Shown piece after piece: positions 533 through 20,341 of a stretch of DNA of 41,826 bases. Both the position numbers and the translations under genes were made by a program. The notes under the pieces are model-generated. The model made no database searches, had not been told where the DNA came from, and worked only from the letters and a program-made list of their open reading frames with translations. This DNA is from Oscillospiraceae bacterium (GTDB lineage: Bacteria; Bacillota; Clostridia; Oscillospirales; Ruminococcaceae), in the NCBI GenBank assembly GCA_015067125.1, contig SVNB01000002.1, positions 1 through 41,826 on the forward strand, in the 5' to 3' direction. Numbering within the stretch: the stretch's first letter is position 1; each line of letters starts with the position of its first letter.

Positions 533-1843
533 TTATTTAATGTCCTCGTCGGTAAAAGGATCTCCGCATTCCGGACAGAATTTAGGCGGATTTTTGGGAT
601 CTTCCGGTTCCCAGCCGCATTTATCGCATTTATAAAGGGGTTCTCCCGCAGGCTTTTTAGCTCCGCATTCCGAACAGAACTTGCCTTTATTAATGTTTCC
701 GCAGGAACACACCCAGCCGTCGGCCGGCTTTTTGCCGCCGCATTCGGTGCAGAATCTGCCGGTATTTACCGCTCCGCAGGAACAGGTCCAGCTATCCGCC
801 TTCGGTGCCGGTGCGGGCTGCTGTGCAGCCTGCTGCTGGCCCATGGCATAAAGGTTCTGGGCGTTAACGCCGCCGGCAGTCTGGGCCATATTCATACCCA
901 TAAACGCCATGGCCGGGCCTGCGTTTTCGTTTGCCGCTGCCGCCTGCATTGCGGAAGCCTGCGCTCCGACAAGGTGTGCCGCCGCTCTGGTGGGATCCAT
1001 AAACGCCGCGTTGCGCTGAAGTTCCTTGATCATTTTTTCGTCTTCTTCTTCCGCTTTTACGGAAGAAACGCCGAAGGATACGATTTCGATTCCGCGAAGG
1101 CCGCGCCATTTTTCAGAAAGCACATCGTTAAGCGCATCTGCCATTTCCGCGGTATGGCCGGGAAGCGCGGAATAGCGCACACCCATGGCGGAAATTTTAG
1201 CAAACGCCGGCTGAAGGGCGGTAAGAAGCTCGGATTTAAGCTGGCTTTCTATATCCGTTCTGGTAAACTGATACGCCACATTGCCGCAGACATTTGTATA
1301 GAAGAGAATAGGGTCGCAAAGGCGATAGCTGTATTCGCCGAAGCAGCGGATATTGATATCAATATCAATTCCTGCTCTTTCGTCAACTACTCTGAACGGT
1401 ACCGGGTTAGGTGTGCCGTATTTGTTGCCGATAAGTTCCTTTGTATTGAAATAATAAACGCGCTGATCCTTTGCGGTATCTCCTCCAAAGGTAAAACGTT
1501 TTCCGATGGTTTTAAAGGAATCCAGAATGCTTTCGCCCAGTTTGCCCGCAAAGATGGAAGGCTCGGTGGAAGAATCGTATGTGAATTCGCCGGGTTCGGC
1601 GCAAACTTCAACAACCTTGCCCTGTTCCACAATGCACATACACTGGCCGTCCGCAACGGCAATTACGGAACCGTTGGAAATGATATTTTCTTCTCCGCTT
1701 GTATTGGAACTGCGTCCGCTTATTCTTTTTGCGCCTTTTCTGGCAAGAACGTCGTTCGGAAGAGCATCGCAATAAAAATACTCCTTCCACTGATCGCCCA
1801 GCACGCCGCCGACCGCTCCGCCGATTGCTTTAATAAGTCCCAT
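533..1843 (-). CDS. SPFH/Band-7 domain protein with three C-terminal zinc ribbons
   Basis: SPFH-like body plus CSCG..FCTECG, CSCG..FCSECG and CDKCG..FCPECG ribbons. Start placed at ATG 1843 by the GGAG site. Confidence 0.8.
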   Translation of the reverse strand: MGLIKAIGGAVGGVLGDQWKEYFYCDALPNDVLARKGAKRISGRSSNTSGEENIISNGSVIAVADGQCMCIVEQGKVVEVCAEPGEFTYDSSTEPSIFAGKLGESILDSFKTIGKRFTFGGDTAKDQRVYYFNTKELIGNKYGTPNPVPFRVVDERAGIDIDINIRCFGEYSYRLCDPILFYTNVCGNVAYQFTRTDIESQLKSELLTALQPAFAKISAMGVRYSALPGHTAEMADALNDVLSEKWRGLRGIEIVSFGVSSVKAEEEDEKMIKELQRNAAFMDPTRAAAHLVGAQASAMQAAAANENAGPAMAFMGMNMAQTAGGVNAQNLYAMGQQQAAQQPAPAPKADSWTCSCGAVNTGRFCTECGGKKPADGWVCSCGNINKGKFCSECGAKKPAGEPLYKCDKCGWEPEDPKNPPKFCPECGDPFTDEDIK

Positions 1844-1920
1844 GAAAAACATCTCCTTTTCAGTAAATTATTACAGTTATAATTATAGATTTTTTTATTG
1901 GATTTATCAATAGTTTTAAA

Positions 1921-1952
1921 TAAAAAAGCGGCAGGGTATATTACCCTGCCGC
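1921..1952 (-). terminator. Intrinsic terminator of ABC exporter operon
   Basis: GCGGCAGGGTA...TACCCTGCCGC stem with minus-strand T-run. Confidence 0.8.
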
Positions 1953-1959
1953 ATAGGCT

Positions 1960-3783
1960 TTAAGAAAGCTCTGTCATATTGGTATATAGCTGATAGTATT
2001 TTCCTTTTTGGGCAAGAAGATCATCGTGGTCGCCGCGTTCCACAACCTTTCCGTGTTCCAGAACAAGAATGGCATTGCTGTTGCGCACTGTGGAAAGGCG
2101 ATGAGCGATAATAAATACCGTTCTGCCCTTCATAAGACCGTCAAGGCCTTTTTCTATCAGTTTTTCCGTTCTGGTATCTACGGAAGAAGTCGCCTCATCA
2201 AGAATAAGCACAGGCGCTTTGGAAACCGCCGCCCTTGCTATTGCCAAAAGCTGACGCTGACCCTGGGAAAGATTTGCACCATCGGAATGAAGCATTGTAT
2301 TATAGCCCTGGGGCAGATGGGAAATAAAATAGTGAGCGTTGGCGATTTTTGCCGCTTCTATGCAGTCTTCGTCCGTTGCTTCAAGGTTGCCGTAACGGAT
2401 ATTTTCCATAACCGTTCCGGTAAAAAGGTGGGTATCCTGCAAAACAATACCCAAAGAACGGCGCAGATCATCTTTTTTGATATCTTTTACGTTTATACCG
2501 TCATAGATGATTTCTCCGCCCTGAATATCATAAAAGCGGTTGATAAGGTTTGTTATGGTTGTTTTGCCCGCTCCGGTGGAACCTACAAAGGCTATTTTAT
2601 GTCCCGGCTTTGCAAAAAGAGAAAGATCGTGCAGAACGGGTTTTCCTTCCACATAAGCAAAATCCACGTTATTAAAACGGACGTCACCCCTGAGTGGAAC
2701 TCTTTTTCCATCCGGAAGCACCCAGTTATAATCGTTTTCCACTTTTTCAAGAGTTACTTTGCCTTCGTCAACTTCCGGTTCAAGGTCAAGCACTTCAAAA
2801 ATACGTTCCGCACCGGCAAGAGCCAGCATTATGGAGTTGAACTGTTCCGAAATCTGGCTTACCCTATCCGCAAAAGTTCGTATATACTGCAAAAACGCAA
2901 TAAGAATACCGCCCACTTCCTCACCGGTCAGCCACAAAACGCCGATGGCACAGGTAAGGGCATAAAACATATGAGAAAGGTTGTTAAGCAGCGGGCCCAC
3001 AACAGAAGTTGCAATAGTCGCCCTTGTGGAAGCGGCGTAAAGCTTTTCGTTTATGGGTTCAAAATTTTCCATAACTTCTTTTTCGTGAGTAAAAACTTTT
3101 ATATCACGCTGGCCGGAAATCATTTCTTCGATATATCCGTTTACGGAAGCTGCGTGTTTTTGCTGTTCGCGGTAGCTTTTGCTGCTTATTTTTGTGGTAA
3201 CGCGCACAATAACAACAACTATTGCCGCAAGCACAACCATTATTGCAAAAAGCCGCATGGAAAGTGCCAGCATCATTCCGATGGTTCCCACAAGGGACAT
3301 GACGGAAATCATAAGCTGGGTTATGCTGTGCTGCAAAAGTTCGTTTGTGGCCTCTATATCATTTGTAAAATAGCTCATAAGGCTTCCGTGGGTGTTGTTG
3401 TCAAAATATCTTATGGGAAGCCTTTGCATCTTTGTAAAAAGTTCGGAACGCAGTTCGCGCATTATAACGGTGCTGCATTCCAGCATAAGGCGGTTAAGCA
3501 GATAGTTTGTAACCGCGCTTAAAAGGTAAAGCGCCGCAAGCCCTGCCAAAAGAGCCATATATTTTGCGTAAACCTCGTTTGGGGCAATGCCGCTTTCTTT
3601 AAGCAGGTTTACAAGGGGTTTCATACAATAGGAAGAACCTATCGTTGCCGCAGCATATATTGCTATGGAAACAACCGCCGCAGCAAGAATCGGCGCGCAA
3701 TGACGGAAGTATCTGAAAAGCCTGAAAAGCGTTTCCATCGGGGAAGAAGCGGCTTTATAATTGCGAAGTTCAACTCTTGGCAT
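1960..3783 (-). CDS. ABC exporter half-transporter (TMD-NBD), canonical Walker B Glu
   Basis: 607 aa; Walker A GSTGAGKTT, signature LSQGQRQ, Walker B VLILDEATSS. Confidence 0.92.
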   Translation of the reverse strand: MPRVELRNYKAASSPMETLFRLFRYFRHCAPILAAAVVSIAIYAAATIGSSYCMKPLVNLLKESGIAPNEVYAKYMALLAGLAALYLLSAVTNYLLNRLMLECSTVIMRELRSELFTKMQRLPIRYFDNNTHGSLMSYFTNDIEATNELLQHSITQLMISVMSLVGTIGMMLALSMRLFAIMVVLAAIVVVIVRVTTKISSKSYREQQKHAASVNGYIEEMISGQRDIKVFTHEKEVMENFEPINEKLYAASTRATIATSVVGPLLNNLSHMFYALTCAIGVLWLTGEEVGGILIAFLQYIRTFADRVSQISEQFNSIMLALAGAERIFEVLDLEPEVDEGKVTLEKVENDYNWVLPDGKRVPLRGDVRFNNVDFAYVEGKPVLHDLSLFAKPGHKIAFVGSTGAGKTTITNLINRFYDIQGGEIIYDGINVKDIKKDDLRRSLGIVLQDTHLFTGTVMENIRYGNLEATDEDCIEAAKIANAHYFISHLPQGYNTMLHSDGANLSQGQRQLLAIARAAVSKAPVLILDEATSSVDTRTEKLIEKGLDGLMKGRTVFIIAHRLSTVRNSNAILVLEHGKVVERGDHDDLLAQKGKYYQLYTNMTELS

Positions 3784-5587
3784 TCGGTTCTTCCTCCTCT
3801 CTCATCTGGCTTTCGTAAACGTCGCGATAGATGGTGCTTCTGGCCATAAGCTCATCGTGAGTTCCGATATCGGAAAGTTTTCCTTCATCAAGCACCGCAA
3901 TGCGGTCACAGGTCATAATGGAAGCTATTCTTTGGGCGATGATGATTTTTGTGGTGCCCGGCATAGAAGTCCGCAGTGCTCTTCTGATATGTTCATCGGT
4001 TGTCATATCACAGGCGCTGGTGGAATCGTCAAGAATAAGTATCTTCGGGTGTTTTACAATCGCCCTTGCAATACGCAGACGCTGGCGCTGGCCGCCGGAA
4101 AGGTTTGCGCCGTCCTGTTCAAGCATGGTTTCGTAACCGTCTTTAAAATTATCGATAAATTCATCGGCACAGGCAATATAGCAGGCCTCTTTCATCTGTT
4201 CCAAAGTGGCGTTCGGGTCGCCCCAGCGCAGGTTATCCGCAATGGTTCCGGAAAAAAGAGAACCGTTCTGCAAAACCATGGAAACCCCGCTGCGCAGTTT
4301 TTCCAGCTTATATTCCCTTACGTCTTTTCCTCCCACTTTTACCGTGCCGGAAAGAGCATCGTAAAACCTTGGAATAAGGTTTACAAGTGTGGATTTTCCT
4401 TCTCCGGTGCCGCCGATAACGCCAAGGGTTTCTCCGCTGTTTATATGCAGGCTTATATTTGCAAGAGCAAGTTTTTCCGCATCACCGGAATAGCTGAAGC
4501 AGACGTTTTCAAAATCAACGCTTCCGTTTGCAACTTCCGCATCGGAAGAACCGTCCGCAATATCTATTTCTTCATCAAGCACTTCGTTGATTCTGTTAAG
4601 AGAAGCCTGCGCTCGGGAAAGGGACATAACAAGCCACGAAAGCATGGTAAGGGAACTTACCGCCTGGGTGGTATATGAAACCATGCTTACCAGTTCGCCG
4701 GTTAAAAGTCCGGTGTTTTCAAAAATAATTTCTCTTCCGCCAAGAAAAAGTATGATTATTGTGCAGCCCCACATAATAACCATCTGAATAGGGCCGGTCA
4801 TGGTAAAAAGCCTTGAAGAAGCCAGCTGGGCATTTCTTAAATCCTCCGCCGTTTCGCGGAATCTTTCGGATTCGTAATCTCCGCGGACATAGGCTTTTAC
4901 TACCCTGCTGTTAACAAGGTTTTCCTGCACGGCTTTATTCATGGAATCCATTTTTTTAAGCATTCGCTTAAATCTTGGCTGGCCTATCTTCATAAGTACC
5001 GCAAGAATTATTGCCAGAAGCGGAATGCAGAAAAGAAAAACCACCGCAAGGTGCGGCGCAATAGTAAACGCCATAACCGTGGACATAACTATCATAATAG
5101 GCGAACGCATAAGGGTGCGCAAAAGCTGCAAAGCGGTCATGCGCATGGTGTTAACGTCCGTTGTTGCCCTGGTGATAAGGCTGGAAGTGGAAAAATGGTC
5201 CGTATTCGCAAAAGAAAAGCTCTGGATTTTTTCAAGAAGCGAAGACCGCAGTTTTTTTGCAAAACCCTGGCTTGCCACCGCGCCGAATTTTGCCGCAAGA
5301 AGACCGCACATCATAGAAACTATCGCAACACATACCATTATAAGGCCAACTGTTATTACAAAGCGGTTTCTGTTTGCAATAAGTTCCGCAGAAAAAAAGC
5401 TTTTAAGCATAAATTCCTCTTCCCGGTAAAGTCCGCCGTCAACTATAACGGACATCAGCATCGGAATAAGCACTTCGAGCATAACTTCCATACAGCCGAA
5501 AAGCATGGTAAGGCCCGTTGCCGTACCATAGCCTTTTATGTTTTTTCCGATATGCCGAAAAATGCCTTTTTTCTTCTTTTCGTTCAA
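3770..5587 (-). CDS. ABC exporter half-transporter (TMD-NBD), degenerate Walker B
   Basis: 605 aa; Walker A GGTGEGKST, LSGGQRQR, ILILDDSTSA. TTG start with upstream GGAG; overlaps the next gene by 14 nt. Confidence 0.92.
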   Translation of the reverse strand: MNEKKKKGIFRHIGKNIKGYGTATGLTMLFGCMEVMLEVLIPMLMSVIVDGGLYREEEFMLKSFFSAELIANRNRFVITVGLIMVCVAIVSMMCGLLAAKFGAVASQGFAKKLRSSLLEKIQSFSFANTDHFSTSSLITRATTDVNTMRMTALQLLRTLMRSPIMIVMSTVMAFTIAPHLAVVFLFCIPLLAIILAVLMKIGQPRFKRMLKKMDSMNKAVQENLVNSRVVKAYVRGDYESERFRETAEDLRNAQLASSRLFTMTGPIQMVIMWGCTIIILFLGGREIIFENTGLLTGELVSMVSYTTQAVSSLTMLSWLVMSLSRAQASLNRINEVLDEEIDIADGSSDAEVANGSVDFENVCFSYSGDAEKLALANISLHINSGETLGVIGGTGEGKSTLVNLIPRFYDALSGTVKVGGKDVREYKLEKLRSGVSMVLQNGSLFSGTIADNLRWGDPNATLEQMKEACYIACADEFIDNFKDGYETMLEQDGANLSGGQRQRLRIARAIVKHPKILILDDSTSACDMTTDEHIRRALRTSMPGTTKIIIAQRIASIMTCDRIAVLDEGKLSDIGTHDELMARSTIYRDVYESQMREEEEPNAKS

Positions 5588-5740
5588 GGATCACATCTCC
5601 TTTTTTGTTTCATATCTAACAAAAAATTATATCAAAAAAGGCGGATTTATTCAATATTTACCATTTATAAATTAAATGGATTTACGCCGCTTTGTTTTGG
5701 TGATTTTAATAACGGAGGTTTCGTTTTTCAACAAAACAAA

Positions 5741-5772
5741 AAAATGCGAAAGCAAAGCTTTCGCATTTTTTA
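5741..5772 (-). terminator. Intrinsic terminator downstream of pepF
   Basis: 13-bp perfect stem AAAATGCGAAAGC/GCTTTCGCATTTT. Confidence 0.8.
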
Positions 5773-5788
5773 TTATTGTGGCAGTATT

Positions 5789-7591
5789 TTATTTATTGAG
5801 TTCTTCCATTTCTTCGATAAGTTCGCCGAAGAGTTTAAGCGCGGAGTTTACGGGATCCGGAGTGCTCATATCTACGCCGGCAATTTTAAGAAGAGAGATG
5901 GGATCTGCGCTGCCGCCGCTGGAAAGGAACTTTTTATATGCGGCAACGGCAGGTTCGCCTTCTTCAAGAATTTTGTTGGCGATGGCTACTGCTGCGGAAA
6001 AACCGGTTGCGTACTGGAATACGTAATAGTTATAGAAGAAGTGCGGGATTCTTGCCCATTCAAGAGCAATGCCGTCATCAGAAACCATATCCGGTCCAAA
6101 ATAAAGTTTGTTCAGTTCGTGATATTTTGCAGAAAGAGCATCTGCGGTAAGTGCCATGCCGCTTTCGGACATTCTGCCCATTTCTCTTTCAAATTCCGCA
6201 AACATGGTCTGGCGGTAAACGGTACCTTTAAAGGAATCGAGGAAGTGGTTGATAAGATATGCTCTTTCGTGTTTATCGGTGGTTTTGCCAAGAAGGTGAC
6301 GCATAAGAAGAACCTCGTTGCAGGTAGAAGCAACTTCCGCAACAAAGATTACGTAACCCGCGGTGTTTACCGGCTGGTATTTAGTGCTGTGATAGCTGTG
6401 AAGAGCGTGGCCCATTTCGTGCGCAAGGGTGAACATGCTGTCAAGGGTATCTTTGTGGTTAAGAAGAACGTAAGGATGGGGCTTGCCGTGGCCGGTGGAA
6501 TATGCTCCGCCGCGTTTGCCTTCGTTTTCATAAACGTCGATCCAGCGGTTTTCAAAACCTTCTTTAAGCAGAGCGACATAATCTTCGCCCAGAACGTGAA
6601 GAGCTTCGAGAACGGTAGCTTTTGCTTCGTCGATGCTGATGGTGGAAGCCGCATCGGAAACGATGGGAGTATAAACGTCGTACATATGAAGTTCATCTAC
6701 GCCAAGCATTTTTTTGCGCAGAGCAACATAGCGGTACATTTTATCAAGGTTGTTGTGAACAGCCTCGATAAGGTTATCGTAAACTTCTTCCGGAACTTCG
6801 GTGCGGTCAAGGGCGGCTTCGCGGGTGGTATTGTATTTTCTTGCTTTTGCAAAGAAATTGCGTTTTTTAAATTCGCCGTCAAGGGTCATGGCGATGGTGT
6901 TTTTAAAATCACCGTAACGGCCGTAAAATGCTTCAAAAGCGTTTTTGCGCAGAACACGGTCGGAACTTTCTTCCAGCGGAACAAAAGAACCGTTGGTAAG
7001 CGCGTGTTCGTTGCCTTCGGAGTCAACTACGTTCGGGAATTTAAGGTCGGCGTTGCGAAGAATTCCGCCGATTTTATCTGCGGAATCTGCCATTTCTTCT
7101 GCGGAAGCAAGAAGTGCTTCTTCCTCTTTGGAAAGAATATGCGCCGCTCTTCTGCGGATTTTATAGATGCTTCTGCGATAGGTTTCAAGTTCCGGACATT
7201 CCGCATAGAACTGTTCCAGCTTTTCTTCGGGAATAGCCATGATTTCCGGAGTGGCAAAAGCGGAAGCGGATTCCATCGCAACAATGGTTGCCATTGCTTT
7301 TCCGCGGAAATCCTGATATTTTGCGTTGCTCATATCCTGGTCGCCGCTGCAGCTTGCATAGGTATAAAGGGTTTCAAGGCGAACGCTAAGCTCGTCATCT
7401 TTTTTGAAAAATTCCAAAAGATTTGCGGCGGATTCACCAAGGGTGCCCTGATATTTCGCAACAACTTCGGGGAATGCTTTAAGCGCTTCGTATTCGGCAA
7501 GCCATGCCTCGTCGCTTTCGAACATATCTTTAAGGTTCCAGGTGTATTCTTCCGGAACTTCGCTTCTTTTAAGGATTTTCTGTTCTGCCAT
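5789..7591 (-). CDS. pepF: Oligoendopeptidase F, M3 family
   Basis: HEMGHALHSYHS zinc motif and full-length PepF-like architecture. Start at MAEQKILKRSEVPEEYTWNLKDMF. Confidence 0.93.
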   Translation of the reverse strand: MAEQKILKRSEVPEEYTWNLKDMFESDEAWLAEYEALKAFPEVVAKYQGTLGESAANLLEFFKKDDELSVRLETLYTYASCSGDQDMSNAKYQDFRGKAMATIVAMESASAFATPEIMAIPEEKLEQFYAECPELETYRRSIYKIRRRAAHILSKEEEALLASAEEMADSADKIGGILRNADLKFPNVVDSEGNEHALTNGSFVPLEESSDRVLRKNAFEAFYGRYGDFKNTIAMTLDGEFKKRNFFAKARKYNTTREAALDRTEVPEEVYDNLIEAVHNNLDKMYRYVALRKKMLGVDELHMYDVYTPIVSDAASTISIDEAKATVLEALHVLGEDYVALLKEGFENRWIDVYENEGKRGGAYSTGHGKPHPYVLLNHKDTLDSMFTLAHEMGHALHSYHSTKYQPVNTAGYVIFVAEVASTCNEVLLMRHLLGKTTDKHERAYLINHFLDSFKGTVYRQTMFAEFEREMGRMSESGMALTADALSAKYHELNKLYFGPDMVSDDGIALEWARIPHFFYNYYVFQYATGFSAAVAIANKILEEGEPAVAAYKKFLSSGGSADPISLLKIAGVDMSTPDPVNSALKLFGELIEEMEELNK

Positions 7592-8286: not shown

Positions 8287-8508
8287 TTATTTTGCTTTTG
8301 CTATCAATTCTTCTATGCCATTTGCAGTGCGCAAAAGTTCGCGATCTATCTGTGTTATCTGCAGCTCTGTGCCCTCGTCCTCCAGCCGGCAAAAAAGCTC
8401 GATAACGGCGTAGGAATCCAGAAGGCCGCTTTCTATCAAATCGGTTTCTTCATCAAAAACCCTTTCGTCCTCGCAGATTTCGTAAAGAATTTTTCTTATA
8501 TCCGTCAC
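8287..8508 (-). CDS. DltC-like carrier protein
   Basis: 73 aa; phosphopantetheine site 'ESGLLDSYAVIELF' resembles DltC GLLDSF. Overlaps the adenylation gene by 4 nt. Confidence 0.8.
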   Translation of the reverse strand: MTDIRKILYEICEDERVFDEETDLIESGLLDSYAVIELFCRLEDEGTELQITQIDRELLRTANGIEELIAKAK

Positions 8509-9860
8509 AGTTTTTCAAGCTCCTTTCTGTCGGTTTTTCCGTTGGTGCTCACGGGCAGGTTTTCCAGTTTTTTTATCGTTTTCGGAATCATATATTCCGG
8601 CAGTTCTTGCAAAAGCACCGCCCTTATTTCTTCTTCCTCGGCCTTTCCGGAATAAAAGGCCTTTATCATGCGCACCTCGCCGTGCTCGTTTCTTTTTGCA
8701 ATAACGGCACAGTTTTCCACGCCTTTTACTGCGCAGATATTGTTTTCTATTTCCAAAAGTTCTATGCGGTAGCCTTTATATTTTATCTGGCTATCAAGCC
8801 TTCCAAAGCAATAAAGCCTGCCGTTTTCTATGCATCCCAAATCCCCGGTTGGATAGCCTTTTGAAAAATCATCATCTTTTCCAAGGTATCCGGCAAAAAC
8901 GCTTTTGCCTTTGAGCACAATTTCTTTGTTTTCGATAAAAATTTCTGCCGCGGCGGAAGAAATTTTTCCTACCGGAAGGATTTCTTCCTGCTCGCACATT
9001 TCTTTTGTAATTTCTATGGCGCAAACGGCAGAGGTTGCCTCCGTCGGGCCATAGGCATTTATTATACGGATATCCGAAAAGCGTTCAAAAATGGCTTTAC
9101 AAAGGGATTTTTGCAGGGTTTCTCCGCAAAAATAGATGCATTTGATAAAAGAAAAATCTTTTTGGCAAAAGCATTTATCCAAAAGACAAAGTTTTATAAA
9201 AGTGGGTGTTGCCACCATAACTTCCGGTTTATTCTGCTTTATTGTATCAATAATTCCGGCAAAATCATTTTTGTTTTCTATCTGCACAATGGCGTGGCCG
9301 CAAAAAAGCGCATAGTATATTGCCGCGGTGCTCAAATCAAAGCTGAACGCCGCCTGGTTGAGCACGTTCGCGTGCTCGAATTTATCCAGCGGTTCAAGCA
9401 AAGTTATCCATTCAATAAAATTATCAAGATTTTTATAAGAAATCGGAACGCCTTTCGGCTCGCCGGTACTTCCGGAAGTAAAAATAATATACGCCGTTTT
9501 GTTTTCTTCCCTGGTTTGAGCACGGTTTTCCGTTTTTTCAAAAGCCGGTTTTTCTTTGCTGCAATCTATAACCGTTCCGGCTTTGGAAAGGGATATTATG
9601 CGGTTTTTCCGTTCTTCCGGAAGAGAAATATCTATCGGAACATAGGCTCTTTTTGCAAAAACGCAGCCAAGAATTGCCGCCATGGTATCGGCGTTTCTGC
9701 CGCCGATTACCGCAACGGGCGAAAAATCATCGTTTTTCAGTTTTTCCGCAAAATCCCGGGCACGGTTATAAAGTTCGCCGAAAGAAAGTTCTTCGTTTTT
9801 GCAGATATAGGCCGTGTTTTCTTTAAACCGAAGCATGGTTTCTGCAAGTTTTTCAATCAT
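8505..9860 (-). CDS. DltA-like amino-acid adenylation enzyme
   Basis: YIIFTSGSTGEPKGVPIS, NAYGPTEATSAVCAIEIT, YPTGDLG, PVSTNGKTDRKEL motifs. Closest by recognition to D-alanine:carrier ligase. Confidence 0.82.
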   Translation of the reverse strand: MIEKLAETMLRFKENTAYICKNEELSFGELYNRARDFAEKLKNDDFSPVAVIGGRNADTMAAILGCVFAKRAYVPIDISLPEERKNRIISLSKAGTVIDCSKEKPAFEKTENRAQTREENKTAYIIFTSGSTGEPKGVPISYKNLDNFIEWITLLEPLDKFEHANVLNQAAFSFDLSTAAIYYALFCGHAIVQIENKNDFAGIIDTIKQNKPEVMVATPTFIKLCLLDKCFCQKDFSFIKCIYFCGETLQKSLCKAIFERFSDIRIINAYGPTEATSAVCAIEITKEMCEQEEILPVGKISSAAAEIFIENKEIVLKGKSVFAGYLGKDDDFSKGYPTGDLGCIENGRLYCFGRLDSQIKYKGYRIELLEIENNICAVKGVENCAVIAKRNEHGEVRMIKAFYSGKAEEEEIRAVLLQELPEYMIPKTIKKLENLPVSTNGKTDRKELEKL

Positions 9861-10691
9861 TCAATCATCTCTAATCTGTTCCAAAGGTATAAGCGCATGG
9901 TCATACATAACAAGGGAATGGTTATCCAGAATAAGTTCTTTTCTTATCTGCGCGCCGCTTTCTTTTTCTATTACAAGGCGGTAAACCTGAGAAATGCGGT
10001 AATAGTTTTCTCCCTCTTTGCGAAAGTGGTGGTTTTCTTCCACAAGGCGGTATCTGCATGGAAAAGGCCTTTCGCTGCGAAGCTCTCCGCAAAGTTCGCC
10101 GTTTTCTATCCACACGTTTATCTGCACTTTTTGTTCCGTATTGTTTTTAAAACGATAATCCACATAATTATTTACAACAGAAGTGCCCGTTCCGAAAGGC
10201 ACTCTTCTTCTTTCATCCGGAAAAAGCGCATCGGAATGGTGGTGCAGTTCCGTAACGGTAAGGGGACTGTTAAGCACAAGCCAGTGCACCATATTTGCCA
10301 TCTGGCAAAGGCCTCCGGCAATATCCGCCCCAAGTTTTCCTCCTCTGCGGATAACAAGGCCTTCTTTATAGCCCTCTTTTTCCGTTGTTTTGCCAATGGT
10401 TTTCCAAAGAGAAAAGGTTTCTCCGGGTTTTATTACGATTCCGTTTATTTTTTCGGCGGCAAGGCGTATATTCGTCACTTTGTTTTCCTGCAAACGGATA
10501 TCCACCCCTTCCAGGTGCCTTACCAGAATGGAACTGTGGCTTTTTACGATGTTCGGAAGGAGCTCTGCCGATTTTTCCTTTGCGATTTTTTCGCTGCTTA
10601 AAAAGTCTTTTATATTGCGCAGCAAAGTTTCTTTTTTTACGGAAATTTTATAGCAGGTAGGATTTATATCGCAGAATAGTTTTCTTCCCAT
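9861..10691 (-). CDS. VanW family protein
   Basis: GETFSLWKTIGKTTEKEGYKEGLVI...GGLCQMANMVHWLVLNSPLTVTELHHHS, characteristic of VanW. Start by CCGGAGG site upstream of ATG 10691. Confidence 0.85.
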   Translation of the reverse strand: MGRKLFCDINPTCYKISVKKETLLRNIKDFLSSEKIAKEKSAELLPNIVKSHSSILVRHLEGVDIRLQENKVTNIRLAAEKINGIVIKPGETFSLWKTIGKTTEKEGYKEGLVIRRGGKLGADIAGGLCQMANMVHWLVLNSPLTVTELHHHSDALFPDERRRVPFGTGTSVVNNYVDYRFKNNTEQKVQINVWIENGELCGELRSERPFPCRYRLVEENHHFRKEGENYYRISQVYRLVIEKESGAQIRKELILDNHSLVMYDHALIPLEQIRDD

Positions 10692-10782
10692 ACGATTTAC
10701 CTCCGGATAAAGCATTTTTTCTTTTCAATAATAAAGTAACCTTTGCTTTGGAATATGTTGCACATTTTTTATAATTTTATCA

Positions 10783-10817
10783 AAAAAGCTCTTCGGTTTT
10801 TTCCCGAAGAGCTTTTT
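10783..10817 (-). terminator. Intrinsic terminator of the ABC importer operon
   Basis: AAAAAGCTCTTCGG...CCGAAGAGCTTTTT. Confidence 0.8.
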
Positions 10818-12572: not shown

Positions 12573-13547
12573 TTAATATACGGTTGCCGCTTTTTCAATA
12601 ATTTCTGCGGGAACTTCTACGCCAACGCTTTCTGCGAAGGTTTTGTTTACTACAAGCGCGCATTCCTTCTGAGTTTCTACAGCGATTTCGGAAGCGGATT
12701 CGCCGTTAAGAACGCGAACTGCCTGTGCGGCGGTCTGTTTGCCAAGCTCGTAATAATCAATAGCGGTGGTTGCAATGCCGCCTTCTGCAATCATAGCTTC
12801 TACTGCGCAGAAAACAGGAATCTGATTTTCCACAGCGGTGTGGTTTACGGTTGCCATTGCGGAAGCAAATGCGTTATCGGAAGGAATATAGATAGCATCT
12901 GCGCTGCCCACTACGGAAGAAATTACCTGAGGAATATCGTTGGAGGAAGAGGAAGTCTGGATAATAACTTCCATGCCAAGAGCTTCTGCAGCAAGTTTTG
13001 CTTCGTCTGCCTGGATGGCGGAGTTGGGTTCGCTGGAAGTATAGAGAATAGCAAGTTTCTGCGCATCGGGAAGAACGTCTTTGATTACGGCGATCTGGTC
13101 TGCGATAACGGGCATATCAAGGGTGCCGGTTACGTTTTTGCCGGGTGCTTCGTTGGATTCCACAAGTCCTGCGCCGACTGCATCGGTTACTGCGGTAAAG
13201 AATACGGGAACATCGGTTTCCTGAAATACGTTTACTGCGGACTGTGCGGCAGGGGTTGCGATTGCAAGAGCAAGGTCAATTCCGCTGTTTGCAAAAATAT
13301 CGCAGATCTGCTGGCAGTTGCTTACTTCGCCGGAAGCGTTCTGGAAATCAATTTTAAGGTTTTCGCCCTCAACATATCCTGCTTCTGCAAGACCGTCCAC
13401 AAAACCCTGGTATGCTTCATCAAGAGAAGCATGCTGCATAAACTGAATAACGCCGATTTTTACAACGTCGGAATCGCTTTCTCCGGAACAGCCGGAAACA
13501 GCAAGCATCATAACAAGGGCCATAAGAACACAGATGATTTTTTTCAT
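12573..13547 (-). CDS. ABC substrate-binding lipoprotein (TrpX/ABC_sub_bind family)
   Basis: Lipobox LAVSGCSGES; VKIGVIQFMQHASLDEAYQGFVDGLAEAGY; AILYTSSEPNS. Start at MKKIICVLMA. Confidence 0.9.
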   Translation of the reverse strand: MKKIICVLMALVMMLAVSGCSGESDSDVVKIGVIQFMQHASLDEAYQGFVDGLAEAGYVEGENLKIDFQNASGEVSNCQQICDIFANSGIDLALAIATPAAQSAVNVFQETDVPVFFTAVTDAVGAGLVESNEAPGKNVTGTLDMPVIADQIAVIKDVLPDAQKLAILYTSSEPNSAIQADEAKLAAEALGMEVIIQTSSSSNDIPQVISSVVGSADAIYIPSDNAFASAMATVNHTAVENQIPVFCAVEAMIAEGGIATTAIDYYELGKQTAAQAVRVLNGESASEIAVETQKECALVVNKTFAESVGVEVPAEIIEKAATVY

Positions 13548-13604
13548 TTTGGTTACCTCCAAAATATAAAGATTGTTTTTATTTAACACCTTTTTGCGGG
13601 CATA

Positions 13605-13890
13605 AATACAATAAAAAAATCCCTGCAAAAATGCAGGGACGAACAAACAAAATCCGCGATACCACTCTGCTTTCGTACCGGCCTCGCAACCGGAACCTTG
13701 ATAGGCTTAAAAGTCTTAGCGATGTAACGGTCGCACCCGTTGTATCTACTGCAATTTTCAACACACTGCTCGCAGAATGAACTTCGAAACGGATATTACG
13801 CTGTTGCCTTGCACCAACCGGCAATTCTCTAAAGCTTTTCTCCGGCCTACTCTTTCTGCTCGAACGCATTTAGCTGGCTATAAAATTATG
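13605..13890 (-). promoter_or_regulatory. T-box leader upstream of ABC importer operon; specifier read as UUC (Phe)
   Basis: Minus strand: Stem I base GCAGAA/TTCTGC, AGAGTAG loop, GGTTGGTGCAAGG distal part, specifier context GAAG-TTC-ATTCTGCGAGCA, T-box AGAGTGGTATCGCGG (13654-13669), terminator GTCCCTGCATTTTTGCAGGGAT-T6. Confidence 0.93.
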
Positions 13891-13896
13891 TATCTT

Positions 13897-13925
13897 ATGT
13901 TAACAACATTCGCGAAAAAAGTCAA
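13897..13925 (-). promoter_or_regulatory. Sigma-A type promoter for the T-box leader
   Basis: TTGACT-17 nt-TAACAT on the minus strand. Confidence 0.65.
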
Positions 13926-20112: not shown

Positions 20113-20159
20113 TTTTGCTTTTATCGAATATGATATGTGGACTCCCCTTAACCCGAGAA

Positions 20160-20341
20160 ACACGATCCTGCGGAAATTATCCTGACTTATGCTTCATCCT
20201 ACAAAGGCGCCTTCCCATCTTTCGACAGTGGCATTGTGCCTTTTTCGTCCGCAAATACAGTTGAGGTAACAGCAACGGATTCACACCGTTTTCCCTTTCG
20301 CTTTTTGGCGAAAGCCACAAATTGGCAACCGCAAGACCCAC
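20160..20341 (-). promoter_or_regulatory. Cobalamin (AdoCbl-type) riboswitch
   Basis: Minus strand GGGAAaacgGTGtgAATccgttGCTGttacc, GCCACTG, GGGAAGGCGCC, B12 box AGTCAGGATAA (20178-20188); P1 GGTCTTGCGG/CCGCAGGATC. Confidence 0.93.

Follow-up and report, generated by a model that had tools for sequence, protein, structure and literature searches.

A T-box leader with a phenylalanine specifier upstream of a PF04392-family ABC importer operon in an Oscillospiraceae bacterium

Introduction

Bacterial ABC importers of the family that includes TrpX, CD0873 and VC_1101 use binding proteins of the PF04392 type. In this family the ligand preference has been traced to two positions of the pocket. Glu263 and Tyr279 are found in the tyrosine binder, Ala and Tyr in a phenylalanine binder and Ala and Gln in a tryptophan binder, and Glu263 of C. 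difficile CD0873 holds the hydroxyl group of the bound tyrosine (PMC6816091). On the side of regulation, a phenylalanine T-box of the Bacillus cereus group appears to be derived from a tyrosine T-box (Wels 2008, PMC2494555). The same study describes this change from Tyr to Phe together with a semi-independent spread of T-boxes, and among the entries of its Table 1 there is no phenylalanine ABC system (PMC2494555). The survey of Vitreschak (2008) may already include a phenylalanine T-box that precedes an ABC importer.

We have analyzed a stretch of 41,826 nucleotides (the window) from a gut Oscillospiraceae bacterium with relatives in the ruminant hindgut, in which a T-box leader precedes the genes of such an importer. 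The source genome (G000) has a size of 1.6 Mb and is 88% complete. A preliminary description of the window had read the leader as specific for phenylalanine, and had concluded that an annotation of the transporter by homology to tryptophan transporters would be wrong.

Results

Anatomy of the leader

The Infernal search proposed in the preliminary description returned a full-length covariance match to RF00230 on the minus strand (Table 1), with an E-value of 1.7e-20 when the search covers the whole genome. The gathering score of the model is 93 and the leader stays 3 bits short of it, hence a default Rfam scan is silent here and does not report this T-box. Part of the missing score is probably explained by a mismatch in the antiterminator helix, in which AGAG stands opposite CCCU. 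The leader carries the landmarks AGUA and AGAGA, the distal loop, CCGUUA (IIA/B), the antiterminator and a competing terminator. The terminator stem has a free energy of -15.3 kcal/mol, and its 5' arm doubles as the 3' arm of the antiterminator, so that the two folds are mutually exclusive. The TTGAC of the promoter -35 element is kept in the orthologous leaders.

Table 1. Features of the leader and the importer operon (positions in the window)
Feature	Position	Strand	Evidence or remark
Sigma-70-like promoter, TTGACT-17-TAACAT with TG extension	13897..13925	-	sequence pattern
T-box leader, RF00230	13632..13873	-	90.0 bits, E 2.5e-20, model positions 1-219
Stem I basal helix 5' strand, GCAGAA	13854..13859	-	pairs with 13772-13777
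Specifier codon UUC (Phe)	13779..13781	-	one base 5' of stem I basal helix
Stem I basal helix 3' strand, UUCUGC	13772..13777	-	pairs with 13854-13859
61-nt stretch (stem II, IIA/B, linker to stem III)	13701..13761	-	identical in 11 species
T-box bulge UGGU	13661..13664	-	would pair with ACCA of tRNA-Phe
Intrinsic terminator, 9-bp stem and U run	13619..13640	-	competes with antiterminator
Lipoprotein substrate-binding protein (SBP), PF04392 (TrpX/CD0873/VC_1101 family)	12573..13547	-	Pfam E 5.6e-75
ABC permease, PF02653	11618..12547	-	Pfam; gene order same in all orthologous loci
ABC ATPase, PF00005	10820..11617	-	Pfam; orthologous loci
Terminator-like hairpin past ATPase gene	10783..10817	.	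14-bp stem, T runs both sides

A 96-codon open frame lies across the leader (13579-13869, minus strand), and 10 of the 11 orthologous leaders keep it open. A ribosome-binding site was looked for in front of this frame and none was seen. We have set the frame aside as a gene and regard it as an unproven by-product of leader conservation.

The specifier frame

The UUC codon named in the preliminary description was recovered in the same position and frame. In the window a spacing of one base between codon and basal helix gives the 6-bp helix GCAGAA/UUCUGC, which is longer than the helix at any other offset; this helix fixes the spacing and therefore the frame as UUC. Other T-boxes have different complementary pairs at this site, for example GCAAAA/UUUUGC, UGGGA/UCCCA or GGAGA/UCUCC. 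The source genome offers a set of controls, because seven of its eight T-boxes are followed by genes that name their amino acid; the specifiers are CUC for leuS, UUC for pheS, UGG for trpB, GCC for alaS, AUG for metNI, UGC for cysE-cysS and GUA for valS. In the pheS, cysE and valS T-boxes no other offset gives as long a helix as the one that begins one base 3' of the codon. For leuS and trpB a neighbouring offset does equally well, and for alaS and metN the helices at this offset are short and the next offset is better by one pair. Over 62 surveyed T-boxes the mean helix is 5.27 bp at the one-base offset versus 3.8-4.6 bp at the others, and the helix reaches 5 bp or more at this offset in 92% of them versus 31-55% elsewhere. 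The percentages are rough and their independence is incomplete, since codons were called with the rule in mind and in a few rows the offset script picked up a UUC or UAC at the wrong place.

A specifier frame shifted to GUU (Val) or UCA (Ser) is extremely improbable. The 3' GAGC motif lies 7 nt away compared to 6 nt in most controls, so that a caller with a fixed distance arrives at UCA, and the UGGU bulge would suit Val as well. However, the Cys T-box, with its known downstream gene, also shows the distance of 7 nt, UUC is spaced by one base from the basal helix, and the protein family binds aromatic residues. Furthermore, tRNA-Ser normally carries G73, which does not favor the serine reading. 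The specifier context GAAGUUCA is identical in the window leader and in the pheS T-box of the source genome. UUC thus stands in the internal loop of stem I, where it would match the function that we propose for the operon.

The T-box bulge and the discriminator base

The UGGU bulge is present as had been described. The general statement that bacterial tRNA-Phe has A73 holds for the genus: tRNA-Phe genes with the anticodon GAA and A73 were read in six genus-mates, and UGGU can pair with this discriminator base. In the source genome itself, which is incomplete, 30 tRNA loci were read and none of them was tRNA-Phe. The preliminary description had gone further and stated that tRNA-Trp, with its G73, would need UGGC. 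This does not hold. Of 39 surveyed UGG T-boxes upstream of related binding proteins, 28 carry UGGU and only 11 carry UGGC. In another genome of the same genus (G061) a UGG T-box with UGGU precedes a PF04392 gene, and the tRNA-Trp of this genome ends in GCCA (G73); this tRNA-Trp was read after pattern searches for tRNA-Trp across the genus had found none. The TBDB likewise gives U for 46% of tryptophan T-boxes and ascribes this to G-U wobble (PMC7778990). UGG T-boxes with UGGU and the TBDB figure together rule out an exclusion of tryptophan by the discriminator, and the argument that two independent sites exclude Trp loses one of its two sites. Every intact UAC and UUC T-box of the survey has UGGU. 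The bulge of the window simply permits phenylalanine, and UGGC would have counted against it. For practical purposes, these figures show that the final base of the T-box bulge is unusable for excluding tryptophan.

The binding protein

The SBP gene starts with an ATG at 13547 preceded by GGAGGT, and its product matches PF04392 with 252.7 bits against a cutoff of 25.9. The AlphaFold model of the protein has a pLDDT of 90.8. The top Foldseek matches are 6hni, 3lft and 3lkv (TM 0.85-0.86 by query length), which correspond to CD0873 with tyrosine, a pneumococcal protein with tryptophan and VC_1101 with phenylalanine. After these three the matches drop steeply to the next distinct protein (E about 5e-10 versus about 1e-32). 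At the two selectivity positions the window protein has Val and Tyr. As far as the residues can tell, this pocket argues against tyrosine and fits phenylalanine. Against tryptophan it carries little weight, since A/Y and E/Y pockets occur in relatives under UGG control. The binding protein gives partly independent support for phenylalanine.

We judge it very unlikely that the leader has been misread and that the operon serves tryptophan import, in line with family annotations (TrpX, "tryptophan/tyrosine transport system"). The UGGU bulge is compatible with tRNA-Trp via the G-U wobble (PMC7778990) and the TrpX of Streptococcus suis is under T-box control (PMC9382623), but the specifier loop of the window has no UGG in any frame, and the source genome's own tryptophan T-box (trpB) combines UGG with UGGC, while its pheS T-box has UGGU. 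The protein scores 312.5 against the cutoff of 390 for the TrpX equivalog NF041285, hence the NCBI rule for TrpX would not assign it this name. The Gln that admits tryptophan in SP1069 (Q284) is replaced by Tyr, a residue change of limited weight as Gln is also absent from the surveyed UGG-controlled relatives. The warning that an annotation by homology to tryptophan transporters would be wrong thus pointed in the right direction and was overstated, since a solved phenylalanine binder belongs to the family and the TrpX cutoff is not reached.

Specifiers and pocket residues across the family

We collected 182 related binding proteins from family, order and GTDB matches, 65 of them with a readable T-box whose specifier was read by eye against the helix rule. 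These specifiers are UGG in 39, UAC in 10 and UUC in 16 cases, and 12 of the latter belong to the window clade, the window included. Glu263 goes together with a UAC T-box in 10 of 10 cases and with a UUC T-box in one of five lineages, when the window clade is counted once; the other four lineages are non-Glu (Fisher p 0.0037, phylogeny ignored). The UUC-controlled relative L260 retains Glu. UGG-controlled relatives mostly have an A/Y or E/Y pocket, which rules out the two-residue code as a sufficient rule. In genome G062 two neighbouring tandem paralogues (L062), which are each other's nearest relatives, pair UAC with Glu and UUC with Ala. Such paired variants of leader and pocket make a ligand code of the family directly testable.

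It is quite possible, if somewhat doubtful, that in Clostridia the T-box specifiers UGG, UAC and UUC are a readable ligand code of PF04392 importers. The use of phenylalanine would then have arisen several times from Tyr-type ancestors, by a single-base change of UAC to UUC coupled with loss of the pocket Glu that binds the tyrosine hydroxyl, and the window might be one such switch, its leader being recruited from a Tyr/Phe T-box lineage foreign to its binding protein.

Another reading accepts a leader that senses tRNA-Phe and takes the importer as broadly aromatic, transporting Phe and Tyr and perhaps Trp, with phenylalanine as the regulatory trigger. We consider this rather unlikely. When a related transporter of C. 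difficile was lost, less Tyr and less Phe were taken up (PMC5951980), the family has binders for each of the three aromatic residues (PMC6816091), and the pocket code separates the Trp members poorly. However, the Glu263 that binds the tyrosine hydroxyl in CD0873 is Val in the window protein, the source genome encodes a separate, second binding protein of the Glu type (L127, Tyr-like), and CD0873 was called exquisitely specific for tyrosine by its authors (PMC6816091).

Conservation of leader and operon

The phenylalanine reading of the leader is also in line with the orthologues. Eleven orthologous operons are found in ruminant-gut Oscillospiraceae, with binding proteins that are 89-94% identical, and the leader with UUC and UGGU is present in all of them. 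The 61-nt stretch that is invariant in these leaders compares to 70% identity at fourfold sites of the downstream gene, and other T-box families in the genus have invariant runs of 23-27 nt at most. This long run could reflect extra constraint or a recent spread. Homologues with 71-80% identity, in Lachnospiraceae and elsewhere, share the pocket residues of the window protein. They have no recognisable T-box and give no regulatory support, thus the T-box belongs to the genus and not to the protein clade. Outside the genus, the nearest relatives of the leader are a UAC leader (L075, 66%) and the UUC leader of L260 (65%). Both precede binding proteins of another subfamily, so the window leader and its SBP gene may have separate histories.

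The hairpin past the ATPase gene is likely to mark the end of the operon. Beyond it, at 8505-10715 (minus strand), lies a VanW-domain gene directly followed by a gene for an adenylation enzyme that resembles DltA, with scores under the DltA cutoffs, and this pair also adjoins the importer in the relative L136. An operon that reaches into these genes is unlikely with the terminator-like hairpin in between. The window also contains a cobalamin riboswitch at 20155-20334 (minus strand, 78.9 bits).

Discussion

We consider it very probable that a tRNA-Phe T-box controls this three-gene ABC importer and that the importer mainly takes up L-phenylalanine. What we have observed directly is the anatomy of the leader, the specifier frame and its conservation, A73 in the tRNA-Phe of the genus, and the family to which the binding protein belongs, with its predicted fold; binding of the tRNA, antitermination and the transported ligand we infer. 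The phenylalanine specificity proposed earlier for the leader is supported by the specifier frame, the pheS T-box as control, the orthologues and A73 of tRNA-Phe.

The leader would act as a canonical transcription-attenuating T-box riboswitch that senses whether tRNA-Phe(GAA) is charged. Under a shortage of phenylalanine, uncharged tRNA-Phe would pair through its anticodon with UUC and through its ACCA end with UGGU. The paired tRNA would stabilise the antiterminator and RNA polymerase would read into the SBP-permease-ATPase operon, while with charged tRNA the terminator should stay. L-phenylalanine is most likely the importer's main substrate.

G000 has a prephenate dehydratase, as do 14 of 15 genomes of the genus. 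We have therefore rejected phenylalanine auxotrophy as the reason for import; the bacteria can probably make phenylalanine, and import might serve economy or as a supplement. G061 is the sole member of the genus in which no prephenate dehydratase was detected. It also has no Phe-type importer and instead has the UGG T-box before a PF04392 gene mentioned above (L126, T-box at 4607).

A separate observation concerns genus-mates of the source organism. Their loci L117-L125 have two tandem T-boxes 2.7 kb apart, with the specifiers AUC (Ile) and GUA (Val). In L118 the T-boxes lie near 3262 and 6034 and the genes at 875-3157 and 3659-5983, and each T-box precedes a fusion protein of about 770 amino acids with HTH, cupin and AMP-binding (acyl-CoA synthetase) parts. 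This arrangement suggests that tRNA-Ile and tRNA-Val control genes whose products activate branched-chain fatty acids, from which Ile and Val would be made by reductive carboxylation. A brief literature search found no precedent for tandem Ile/Val T-box acyl-CoA synthetase fusions, and this system is possibly more novel than the phenylalanine importer.

The value of the importer locus lies in assigning a substrate within a common and vaguely annotated family, which is useful as annotation. Several known systems can be set beside it. The trpXYZ operon of S. suis (PMC9382623) also has a T-box leader before an SBP-permease-ATPase operon of the PF04392 family. Its specifier is Trp and it takes up tryptophan, whereas in the window the specifier is UUC, the pocket has Val/Tyr and the protein scores under the cutoff of the TrpX equivalog. 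The nearest solved structure to the binding protein is CD0873 (6HNI; PMC6816091), with 39% identity and a TM score of 0.85 by query and 0.94 by target length. The two differ in the pocket, where Glu263 binds the tyrosine hydroxyl in CD0873 and the window protein has Val. VC_1101 of Vibrio cholerae (3LKV), crystallised with phenylalanine, has the same fold, and its Ala/Tyr pair comes closest to the Val/Tyr of the window. The two proteins share 35% identity, and the host of VC_1101 differs in being Gram-negative. A T-box would not be expected before VC_1101 in such a host. In the B. cereus group, a phenylalanine T-box precedes an NSS transporter (Wels 2008, PMC2494555), and there the Phe specifier has likewise been used to infer a phenylalanine transporter. 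That transporter is a sodium symporter of the NSS family, whereas the window encodes an ABC importer. The window is a well-supported new example of a type of regulation that is already known, in a family that already has a phenylalanine binder.
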